NCBI GenBank assembly: GCA_013001145.1 | Contig: JABDND010000041.1 | Location: 1-62,902, forward strand | DNA: 62,902 bases | Direction: 5' to 3' | Origin: Croceitalea sp. | Lineage (GTDB): Bacteria > Bacteroidota > Bacteroidia > Flavobacteriales > Flavobacteriaceae | Shown: positions 16,619-42,274 of the stretch, in pieces | Layout: every line of letters begins with the position of its first letter | Position numbering within the stretch: the stretch's first letter is position 1 | Notes under the pieces: generated by a model | Databases searched by the model: none | What the model saw: the letters and a program-made list of their open reading frames with translations, nothing else | Told to the model about the DNA's origin: nothing | Made by a program: the position numbers and the translations under genes

Positions 16619-17308
16619 TTAAAATCCTTCAACAAGGTCTTTAAGTTTTCGCTCGTTTTTAATGCCAATTTTTTTGCCCGAAGTATGAATAAGTTCTTGC
16701 TTTTTAAATTCTGAGATGATTCGAATGGCAGATTCCGTTGCCGTGCCTACCACATTGGCAATATCTTCGCGTGAAAGGGTAAGAGCCAAATAACCATCTG
16801 CATCTTCACCAAAATTGTTTCTTAAATAAAGAAAAGCCTCAGCGATACGCTGTTTTACTGTCTTTTGAGACATATTGACAATTACATCGTCGGCCTCTTT
16901 TAAGTCATGTGCCATATGGCGCAATACTTCCAAGGTAAAATTAGGATTGCTGTTCAATGTTGTGGTAATGCTGTCTTTTGGAATAAAGCAAACTTCCATA
17001 TCATTGACCGCCACAGCAGATAGGTTAGCGGCTTCTTCAGCAATCACGGAACGTTGCCCCATGACCTCACCTTTGGTGGCCAATTTTACTATTTGATCTT
17101 TGCCATTGGGGCTTAATTTAGAAAGTTTTGAAACTCCTCCCCGCACACAATAAACACCATTGAGCTTATCGCCTTCCTCAAATAAAGATTCTCCTTTTTT
17201 GATAGATTTGGTAGTTTTGGAATCAGAGACTTTCTTTAATTCTTCCTTGCTCATGGCCCGGAGCGAATTAAACTGTCGTACTATGCAATTCTCACATCTG
17301 TTTTCCAT
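16619..17308 (-). CDS. Crp/Fnr family transcriptional regulator
   Basis: cNMP-binding-like N domain (GESLFEEGDKLNGVYCVRGG) and HTH LSREDIANVVGTATESAIRIISEFKKQELI; N-terminal CxxC. Confidence 0.93.
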   Translation of the reverse strand: MENRCENCIVRQFNSLRAMSKEELKKVSDSKTTKSIKKGESLFEEGDKLNGVYCVRGGVSKLSKLSPNGKDQIVKLATKGEVMGQRSVIAEEAANLSAVAVNDMEVCFIPKDSITTTLNSNPNFTLEVLRHMAHDLKEADDVIVNMSQKTVKQRIAEAFLYLRNNFGEDADGYLALTLSREDIANVVGTATESAIRIISEFKKQELIHTSGKKIGIKNERKLKDLVEGF

Positions 17309-39080: not shown

Positions 39081-39092
39081 TGATAAATGTCA
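39081..39092 (-). promoter_or_regulatory. FNR-like box TGATAAATGTCA upstream of hemN
   Basis: 49 bp before the hemN start at 39031. Confidence 0.8.
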
Positions 39093-39117: not shown

Positions 39118-39129
39118 TGACAATTGTCA
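39118..39129 (+). promoter_or_regulatory. FNR-like box TGACAATTGTCA upstream of the GCS2-CBS gene
   Basis: Perfect 12-bp palindrome, 58 bp before the start codon. Confidence 0.82.
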
Positions 39130-39187
39130 TGTTTTATCTATGAACACTAGGTTAGATTTGTATTAAGTTCAAATTAGCATATTCACA

Positions 39188-41038
39188 ATGGGAGAACAGC
39201 TTCAAAAAGTGACCTTGGGAGGATTAAAAGAGAAACAGGATTTCATCAAAAACCTCCTAAATGATTTGAATGCACTTGAATTGCTTATCGAAAGAGGTCT
39301 TATTGAGAATGACATTGTCCGCATTGGAGCGGAACAAGAAGTTTGTTTGATCAACAAGAATTATGATCCTTGGAAAAAATCGCTTCAACTCTTAGAGGCC
39401 ATTAACGAGGGGCACTTTACCACCGAACTTGCCAAGTACAACATTGAAATTAATTTAGATCCATTTGAACTTAAGGACGATTGTTTTGATCTGGTAAAGA
39501 AACAACTGCTTGACTTGTTGGGTCATGGGAGCACCATTGCCGATAGGATGGGAGCAAAATTTTGCCTAACGGGTATTTTGCCAACAATATCAAAGCGCGA
39601 GGTCACTCTTGATAACATGACGCCAATGCCCAGATATTTTCAGCTCAATGAATTGCTAAAAAACAAAAAGGGAGATGATTTTATACTTAAAATAAAAGGG
39701 GTTGATGAAATTAAACTAAAGCACAATTCTGTTCTTTTCGAGGCTTGTAACACCAGCTTTCAATTACACTTACAAATACCCAGCCATGACTTCGTTAGCA
39801 GTTATAATTGGGCCCAGGCCATAGCTGCACCTGTTTTGGGCATAGCTTGTAATTCTCCTTTTTTAATGGGGCGTGAATTGTGGCATGAAACAAGAATTGC
39901 CTTGTTCCAACAGAGTTTAGACACCAGAAAGCTGTCTTACACACTAAAGGACCAAGCACCAAGAGTAGGTTTTGGCAATCAATGGGAAACAAATTCCATT
40001 GTAGATATTTATAAACGCGATATATCGCAACACAGTGTTTTATTGACAAAACCGATAACCCAAGATGCATTGGCGATGGCCAAAAAAGGGCAGGCGCCAA
40101 AATTGCAGGCATTGAGTCTTTTTAATGGTACTGTTTACCGTTGGAACAGGCCGTGTTATGGCGTAGGAAATGGCAAGGCACATTTGCGTATTGAAAATCG
40201 ATATTTGCCTGCTGGTCCATCGGTCGTTGATGAAATGGCCAATTTTGTTTTTTGGGTCGGGGTCATGGTAGGGAGACCCAAACAGTATGATGATATGCCG
40301 TCTCAAATGGATTTCAAAGATGTAAAATCAAACTTCATTAAAGCAGCCAGAAGCGGCAAGAATACTATACTTTTATGGAATAACAAACCTATGAAAGTGC
40401 AAGATCTGGTTATCAAAGAGCTTATTCCCATTGCCGAAGTTGGACTTAAAAAACATGGAATTGATAAGAGCGACATTGATTTTTATTTAAACATCATCAA
40501 AAGCAGGGCCAAGGGCCATTCTGGTTCAAGCTGGCAAATAAATAATTATCGTGCCCTCAAAAATTATTTAAAACCAGAAATTGCGCTCAGAAAATTGACC
40601 AGGGCTATTTGTGATAATCAAGAAAAAGGCCTGCCCGTTCACAAATGGCCAAATATTAAAATCAACGGCAACGAAAAACAGCTACCCAAAAAAATTGGTC
40701 ATATGATGACCACAAGACTTATGGTGCTTAAAGAGAATGACTTTGTGAATATGGCCAAAGCTATTATGGATTGGAACCATATACACCATGTGCCTGTTGA
40801 AAATTCAAAAGGTAAGCTCGTTGGCTTACTTACTTACAGCCAACTTGAAAAACATAAAGGCATTCAATCATTTGATGACACTATAGTTTCGGATATTATG
40901 ATTCGAGACCTGATTACTGTTACACCACAAACCTATACCGCAACAGCCAAAAAATTGATGGCCCAGCATCAAATAGGATGTTTGCCCGTAACTAAAAATG
41001 GCACCTTGATCGGTATTGTCAGTAAAAATGATTTTTAG
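39188..41038 (+). CDS. Glutamate-cysteine ligase-like (GCS2 superfamily) protein fused to C-terminal CBS-domain pair
   Basis: N-region IGAEQEVCLIN...YNIEINLDPFELKDD and NRYLPAGPSVVDEMANFVFWVGVM; C-region FVNMAKAIMDWNHIHHVPVENSKGKLVGLLTYSQLE...IGCLPVTKNGTLIGIVSKNDF. Confidence 0.85.
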   Translation: MGEQLQKVTLGGLKEKQDFIKNLLNDLNALELLIERGLIENDIVRIGAEQEVCLINKNYDPWKKSLQLLEAINEGHFTTELAKYNIEINLDPFELKDDCFDLVKKQLLDLLGHGSTIADRMGAKFCLTGILPTISKREVTLDNMTPMPRYFQLNELLKNKKGDDFILKIKGVDEIKLKHNSVLFEACNTSFQLHLQIPSHDFVSSYNWAQAIAAPVLGIACNSPFLMGRELWHETRIALFQQSLDTRKLSYTLKDQAPRVGFGNQWETNSIVDIYKRDISQHSVLLTKPITQDALAMAKKGQAPKLQALSLFNGTVYRWNRPCYGVGNGKAHLRIENRYLPAGPSVVDEMANFVFWVGVMVGRPKQYDDMPSQMDFKDVKSNFIKAARSGKNTILLWNNKPMKVQDLVIKELIPIAEVGLKKHGIDKSDIDFYLNIIKSRAKGHSGSSWQINNYRALKNYLKPEIALRKLTRAICDNQEKGLPVHKWPNIKINGNEKQLPKKIGHMMTTRLMVLKENDFVNMAKAIMDWNHIHHVPVENSKGKLVGLLTYSQLEKHKGIQSFDDTIVSDIMIRDLITVTPQTYTATAKKLMAQHQIGCLPVTKNGTLIGIVSKNDF

Positions 41039-41039
41039 C

Positions 41040-42239
41040 ATGTCCCAAACAATGCCCCCACTTGAAAAAACGCTTAAGTCATCTCGCGTGATTGGGCATC
41101 TTAAAGGTAATAGTGATGGTCCAACTGTCATTTTTTTTGCCGGTATTCATGGCAACGAACCTGCAGGTGTTTTAGCATTGCAAAAAGTATTTGAAGAACT
41201 TAATGAACATCATTCTGAAATTGAAGGCGAAGTCATTGGGCTTGTTGGCAATCTCAAGGCCCTCGAGCAGGGCGTACGTTTTCAAGTCGATGATTTAAAT
41301 CGTATTTGGAACCAAGATAGATTAAATAGCTTATTGAATTCTGAAGGAGCTGATGCGAAAAATGATGATGTAGAAATGTTGCAATTATATCATAAACTGC
41401 AGCATATTCTGGCCCACAACAAACCGCCCTTTTATTTTATAGACTTGCACACCACCTCAAGTGAAACGGATCCTTTTATAGTAATGAATGATAGTCTCTT
41501 GATTCGTAAGTTCGTTTCAAATTACCCTTTGCCTAAAATTCTGGGGATCGAAGAATATCTTACAGGAGCTTTATTGAGCTATATCAATGAGTATGGTTAC
41601 GTGGCTTTTGGTTTTGAAAGTGGACAGCACAAGGCTCCAGAGGCAGTCACCATAAACATTGATTTTATAAATTACACTTTATTATTGACAGGATCTATTG
41701 ACTCAACGCCAAAAACCAAAAAAGTCTTTTTTGAAAAATTGGGTAACGCAACAAAAGTTCCCTCTCAGTTTTATGAGATAAAATATGAGCATAAATTAAG
41801 GAGTGTTGATTCGTTTAAAATGGTTCCAGGTTTTGTGAATTTTCAAAAAGTAAAAGGGGGAACAACCCTGGCCGAGTTCAACGGCGAAATGATAAAGACC
41901 AAAAGAATGCGGCAGCTCTTTATGCCATTGTATCAAAATCAAGGAGGTGAGGGATTCTATTATATCAAAAAAGTACCTTTCATATTTTTGATGCTTTCAA
42001 AATTTTTAAGGCATGTAAAAATGGATCATGTATTGACCTTGTTGCCAGGGGTGCAATGGCGAGATGGTAAAAAGGATACCTTGTTGATTGATTTGCATGT
42101 AGCCAAGTTTTTTGCCAAACCCTTACTTCATTTATTGGGTTATCGTGCGAGACAGAAGGACAAAGACCATCTCATTGCCAAAAACCGAGAGGCGGTTTCA
42201 CAAAAAAAAGATTATATCAATACTTCGTGGTATAAATAA
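41040..42239 (+). CDS. Succinylglutamate desuccinylase/aspartoacylase (M14-like zinc carboxypeptidase fold) family; start likely ATG 41040, possibly 41028 or 41016
   Basis: FAGIHGNEPAGVLALQ (HxxE zinc ligands), DLNRIW, FIDLHTTSSETDPFIV. Confidence 0.88.
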   Translation: MSQTMPPLEKTLKSSRVIGHLKGNSDGPTVIFFAGIHGNEPAGVLALQKVFEELNEHHSEIEGEVIGLVGNLKALEQGVRFQVDDLNRIWNQDRLNSLLNSEGADAKNDDVEMLQLYHKLQHILAHNKPPFYFIDLHTTSSETDPFIVMNDSLLIRKFVSNYPLPKILGIEEYLTGALLSYINEYGYVAFGFESGQHKAPEAVTINIDFINYTLLLTGSIDSTPKTKKVFFEKLGNATKVPSQFYEIKYEHKLRSVDSFKMVPGFVNFQKVKGGTTLAEFNGEMIKTKRMRQLFMPLYQNQGGEGFYYIKKVPFIFLMLSKFLRHVKMDHVLTLLPGVQWRDGKKDTLLIDLHVAKFFAKPLLHLLGYRARQKDKDHLIAKNREAVSQKKDYINTSWYK

Positions 42240-42240
42240 A

Positions 42241-42274
42241 ATGGGTTTTGAAAAATTTTTCAAAACCCATTTAT
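42241..42274. terminator. Bidirectional terminator, perfect 30-nt palindrome
   Basis: ATGGGTTTTGAAAAA|TTTTTCAAAACCCAT followed by TTATT. Confidence 0.7.

Follow-up and report, generated by a model that had tools for sequence, protein, structure and literature searches.

Glutathionylspermidine synthetase/amidase (Gss; PMC6272389) and trypanothione synthetase-amidase (PMC2784880) each carry a ligase and an amidase on one chain and serve one conjugate. Here, a two-gene locus of comparable design was analysed in a stretch of 62,902 nucleotides from the flavobacterium Croceitalea sp. (contig JABDND010000041.1), hereafter designated as the window. With these enzymes it shares the combination of a ligase and a hydrolase, encoded by two genes in the window and by one chain in a related family (f6, see below). 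Unlike the locus, Gss and trypanothione synthetase-amidase are assembled from unrelated domains (a CHAP amidase and a GspS-type synthetase), have no CBS domains and belong to other organisms.

Taken separately, both proteins resemble described enzymes. The ligase has the GCS-type fold of plant and yeast glutamate-cysteine ligases (GCLs; 2gwc, 3ig5; TM-score 0.73 by the 2gwc target) and their conserved acidic, His and Arg residues, but is only 11-14% identical to them and differs by a C-terminal CBS pair, a coupled hydrolase and the lack of GshB in several carrier lineages. The same fold occurs in the YbdK/COG2170 carboxylate-amine ligases (1r8g, 1tt4; TM-score 0.76-0.80 by target). However, the window ligase has no full-length match to PF04107, scoring 22.4 bits (partial) where the genome's own YbdK-type paralogue reaches 222, and a profile comparison of the two gave no usable alignment. 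That paralogue (L001; L200 6089-10951) lies in a row comprising an alpha/beta hydrolase, an ATP-grasp-like gene, the YbdK-type GCS2, a class-I amidotransferase and a weakly GSP_synth-like gene. The hydrolase shares with the M14 enzymes AstE, aspartoacylase, DoeB and CphZ their fold, the HxxE...H zinc ligands, the catalytic Glu, the carboxylate-binding R...NR substrate motif and a PF24827 match. It differs from them by scores far below the equivalog cut-offs of aspartoacylase (49.8 vs 180 bits) and succinylglutamate desuccinylase (44.2 vs 305.65 bits), by a C-terminal extension in many members and by its bond to a ligase. No NCBIfam family names the ligase, and the GCS2-CBS architecture was not mentioned in the literature searched, a search that did not extend to the amidoligase survey of Iyer et al. 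2009.

The Croceitalea locus and its two enzymes

The features of the locus are collected in Table 1. The ligase gene encodes 616 aa and the hydrolase gene 399 or 403 aa, depending on whether the start is ATG 41028, which overlaps the ligase TAG stop (41036-41038), or ATG 41040, just past this stop. Both reading frames bear out the preliminary description of this DNA, which had proposed a GCS2-like protein with a CBS pair followed by an M14-like gene whose start lies at or overlaps the stop codon of the first. The 135 nt upstream of the ligase are common to a divergent hemN and contain two Crp/Fnr-type boxes (39081 and 39118). The perfect FNR-like palindrome that had been assigned to the pair was read at its predicted place and does belong to it; the box nearer hemN had gone unmentioned. 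The palindromic terminator proposed for the unit was likewise recovered (-18.2 kcal/mol, z = -5.2 vs shuffled sequences), although it is common to the pair and a convergent gene.

Table 1. Features of the ligase/hydrolase locus in the window.
Feature	Position	Strand	Basis
GCS2-fold ligase (~residues 1-490) with C-terminal CBS pair (~500-616)	39188..41038	+	ORF, Pfam, AlphaFold model, alignment
AspA/AstE-type M14 zinc hydrolase	41028..42239 (start ATG 41028 or 41040)	+	ORF, Pfam, AlphaFold model, alignment
Crp/Fnr-type palindrome TGACAATTGTCA of the pair's promoter	39118..39129	+	Sequence read; kept ahead of orthologues irrespective of the adjacent gene
-7 promoter element TAGATTTG, TAnnTTTG type (Bacteroidota-type)	39153..39160	+	29.5 nt from box centre
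Second Crp/Fnr-type box TGATAAATGTCA, probably for divergent hemN	39081..39092	+	Nearer hemN; two boxes in 14/15 hemN-divergent loci
Terminator-like hairpin, 15-bp stem, common to the pair and a convergent tonB-like gene	42239..42272	+	Folding

Pfam searches assigned the ligase a partial GCS2 match of 22.4 bits (cut-off 21) and two CBS matches (73.3 bits). Because sequence similarity to GCS2 is marginal, and a sequence search found no related solved structure, the fold was checked with an AlphaFold model built from 54 orthologues (pLDDT 90.9). Foldseek matched this model to yeast and plant GCL and to YbdK, and its C-terminus to AcuB-type CBS pairs solved with AMP or ADP. Residues E49, E51, E80, E87, H194, R236, E336 and R338 are invariant wherever aligned, Chlorobia included, and their roles were assigned by analogy with GCS enzymes in general. 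Models and alignment together show a GCS fold with the catalytic Glu/His/Arg set of GshA; the preliminary description had made its reading depend on these residues, and they are intact. In CBS2, Asp615 is 100% conserved at the position of the ribose-binding Asp and position 612 is T in 87% of orthologues and S in the window protein, so that the ribose-binding T/S-x-x-D motif is kept, while CBS1 is without the Asp. On these motifs, the CBS pair of the Bacteroidota ligase probably senses adenine nucleotides.

The hydrolase has an AstE_AspA_cat match of 59.9 bits (cut-off 25), and its model (pLDDT 91.6) was matched by Foldseek to AstE, DoeB, aspartoacylase and the cyanophycin dipeptide hydrolase CphZ. 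Residues H37, E40, R80, N87, R88, H137 and E193 are invariant wherever aligned, the Chlorobia alignment stopping before H137. Structure prediction, which had been suggested as a check, thus yielded confident models of a GCL-like ligase, an AcuB-like CBS pair and an AstE/DoeB/CphZ-like hydrolase.

A conserved gene pair, fused in one family

The neighbourhood survey of GCS2-CBS genes that the preliminary description had called for comprised 80 named loci from a genome collection, two of which end at a contig edge. In 73 of the 78 testable loci, the hydrolase lies directly downstream of the ligase on the same strand. Its start is within 15 nt of the ligase stop or overlaps it in most linked loci, start codons having been chosen mechanically, which inflates some overlaps. 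In family f6, a group of 12 bacteria with small genomes from the same order, both enzymes form one chain in 12/12 loci, with a length of 914-936 aa when complete and both catalytic centres kept. No third gene was found stably linked to the pair among the surveyed loci.

Co-occurrence was examined in 396 Bacteroidota and Chlorobia genomes, drawn evenly. The ligase was present in 116 of them (~29%), the hydrolase subfamily in 61 and both in 57. The hydrolase thus occurred in 57/116 ligase-bearing vs 4/280 other genomes (Fisher p = 4e-31, phylogeny ignored), and the two genes were co-conserved as had been anticipated. In family f19, ligase and hydrolase were unlinked in 5/5 genomes with both matches, yet both were kept. 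In about half of the genomes that bear the ligase, no hydrolase of this subfamily was recognised; outside Chlorobia, most of these genomes are of the f28, f44, f50 and f66 type, so the ligase can act alone. Conversely, in the four genomes with a hydrolase but without GCS2-CBS (L167-L170), the hydrolase lies beside a GshB-like ATP-grasp (PRK12458) and a QEGLA (DUF1704/MATCAP-type) peptidase, in one case (L170) as a convergent gene within the cluster. In this sample, the hydrolase subfamily is therefore always accompanied by a peptide-type ligase. In a phylogenetic tree, hydrolases fused to the ligase, unlinked to it or linked to it form a single clade that excludes the GshB-linked copies, with some supports modest and a midpoint root only. 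At R156, E171 and E172, hydrolases of the fused and unlinked kinds depart from the Flavobacteriia type, so their substrates may differ.

A further version of the pair occurs in family f32, which was identified as Chlorobiaceae by the presence of FmoA in 8/8 tested. Its ligase is without the CBS region and keeps all key residues, so CBS gating lies outside the core of the pair. An AspA-type gene overlaps and follows the ligase in 5/5 loci read; it aligns with the Bacteroidota hydrolase over the N-terminal part only, so that it is at most a putative orthologue.

Several variant arrangements were observed. Ligase doublets ahead of a single hydrolase gene occur in f38; at L176, L178 and L180-L185, the two GCS2-CBS genes of such a tandem are non-identical, which suggests a heteromer or two ligation steps. 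Directly 3' of the fused gene, six loci (L013, L014, L016, L017, L019, L022) have a class-I glutamine-amidotransferase-like gene, a fold group that includes gamma-glutamyl hydrolases. One contig labelled Calditrichales (L101) and one labelled Verrucomicrobia (L044) also carry the family and may be misbinned.

Promoter architecture and a probable low-oxygen setting

Of 158 distinct ligase genes, 70 have a TGAY-N4-RTCA box within the preceding 300 nt (15/15 with a divergent hemN, 55/143 others), against a background of ~2% in shuffled sequence. The possibility that this box belongs only to hemN was rejected, since in loci without hemN it lies at most 120 nt upstream of 47/65 ligase genes vs 10/184 other genes there (p = 5e-26). 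Its centre is 29.5 nt from a TAnnTT element in 52/69 cases and within one base of this distance in 55 (3.5 expected), a fixed spacing that we take to be the layout of a class II Crp/Fnr promoter. At the sequence level, the pair therefore has a Crp/Fnr-type box at a fixed distance from its -7 element, consistent with the earlier assignment of the box to the pair itself. The box is absent upstream in the f6, f38 and Chlorobia loci, so only some members of the family would be under Crp/Fnr-type control.

The window contains 16 Crp/Fnr-type boxes vs 4.8 expected, several of which lie ahead of an Fnr-family regulator or its neighbour, FixI, the cbb3 operon, a CBS protein, nos genes and Usp genes. 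Positions 15629-44829 form a microoxic respiration island in which several genes are preceded by such a box. This island includes the Fnr-family regulator, FixI/CcoI, a cbb3 oxidase, CcoG, a stand-alone CBS protein, a nos operon with Sec-type NosZ, an Rrf2 regulator, hemN and Usp genes. The Fnr-family regulator (16619-17308) has Cys at 5, 8, 54 and 107, of which presumably only three fall on the cluster-ligand positions of E. coli FNR, so that oxygen sensing by the regulator is plausible at most.

Possible functions of the pair

Based on the pairing, the fusion and the nucleotide-type CBS gate, the best reading, to which we give a probability of about 0.5, is that the two enzymes form a switch that makes and breaks a gamma-glutamyl-type conjugate. 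The conserved GCS active site suggests that ATP activates a carboxylate, which an amine then attacks; by homology, the carboxylate would be the gamma-carboxylate of glutamate. The AspA/AstE-type enzyme would work in the opposing direction, hydrolysing the same or a closely related amide to yield an amino acid whose alpha-carboxylate is free. In Bacteroidota, the CBS pair would probably let adenine nucleotides set the balance between ligase and hydrolase, sparing ATP. In Flavobacteriia and Cytophagia, a Crp/Fnr-family activator, presumably responding to oxygen, would switch the operon on from its class II-like promoter, and in the window the pair would be co-activated with the cbb3 oxidase, hemN and nos genes. 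The pair thus probably makes and breaks a small compound when oxygen is scarce. A more detailed proposal is tentative and, taken as a whole, rather doubtful: a system of Bacteroidota and Chlorobia in which a CBS-gated GCS2 ligase and an AspA-like zinc hydrolase, joined in one protein in some of the bacteria, would turn over a gamma-glutamyl-type conjugate of some amine, bacillithiol being one candidate, and so do at low oxygen what glutathionylspermidine synthetase/amidase does elsewhere.

A single chain with two activities would be just as compatible with consecutive steps, and sequential chemistry is the main rival to a make/break cycle. The hydrolase might deacylate an N-acyl precursor to an amino acid or amine that the ligase then glutamylates, or it might remove a temporary glutamyl group after another enzyme has acted, as in EgtA/EgtC. 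The fusion and the exchange of partners with the GshB-like/QEGLA cluster are as compatible with a pathway as with a switch, but the pair has no stably linked third enzyme, and we consider this explanation possible, with the odds against it. In one genome (G293), egtB-egtD lie directly beside a tandem ligase doublet and hydrolase, which would suit such a pathway; as this adjacency was seen at one place only, a link to ergothioneine was treated as chance. Modification of a protein or of the cell wall, in which an amino acid such as glutamate would be attached to a protein or muropeptide by the ligase and taken off again by the M14 enzyme, finds some backing in MpaA and Csd4, M14 relatives among the weaker fold matches of the hydrolase. 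In Aureispira (L051 10367-12219), a RimK ligase adjoins a DoeB-like AspA-family gene, an analogous ligase/hydrolase pairing. The closest folds of both proteins are nevertheless small-molecule enzymes and no conserved substrate gene is linked to the pair, which makes this explanation improbable.

Very improbable, in our opinion, is that the ligase is simply the gamma-glutamylcysteine ligase (GshA) of glutathione synthesis and that the neighbouring hydrolase has no functional connection with it. The nearest solved folds are eukaryotic GCLs, and pair-carrying Flavobacteriaceae have a GshB-like gene at another site. The hydrolase link is, however, far from chance, and a GshB companion is not found across the carriers. 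A strong GshB-like gene was restricted to Flavobacteriaceae carriers, with no match or only a weak one to GSH-S_ATP in the Chlorobia, f28, f40 and f50 genomes tested. Chlorobiaceae, which carry the CBS-less pair, have no detectable glutathione (PMC6282198). Together with the presence of bshC, for bacillithiol synthesis, in 52/52 genomes tested, with or without the pair, these observations make classical glutathione synthesis an unlikely role, in agreement with the preliminary description. Its statement that no gshB-like gene is adjacent holds within the window and has to be qualified for relatives, since 6/6 well-assembled Flavobacteriaceae genomes with the pair have such a gene elsewhere, in a QEGLA/FGase cluster where read. 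This cluster (L201-L206) comprises a GshB-like ATP-grasp, an N-formylglutamate amidohydrolase-like gene and a QEGLA peptidase, and is uncharacterised as a system. A QEGLA/GshB partnership of the ligase was rejected, as the association seen in these six genomes did not extend phylum-wide (9/116 vs 10/280, p = 0.12); the absence of QEGLA/GshB from the window genome means little, its assembly being 88% complete. A link between BshC and the pair was dropped as uninformative, bshC being universal in the 52 genomes.

As a two-gene system with a natural fusion, the pair has a product that may be sought by simple deletion and metabolomics. It predicts a new small molecule under low-oxygen-type control in bacteria that are important in the sea and in denitrification.
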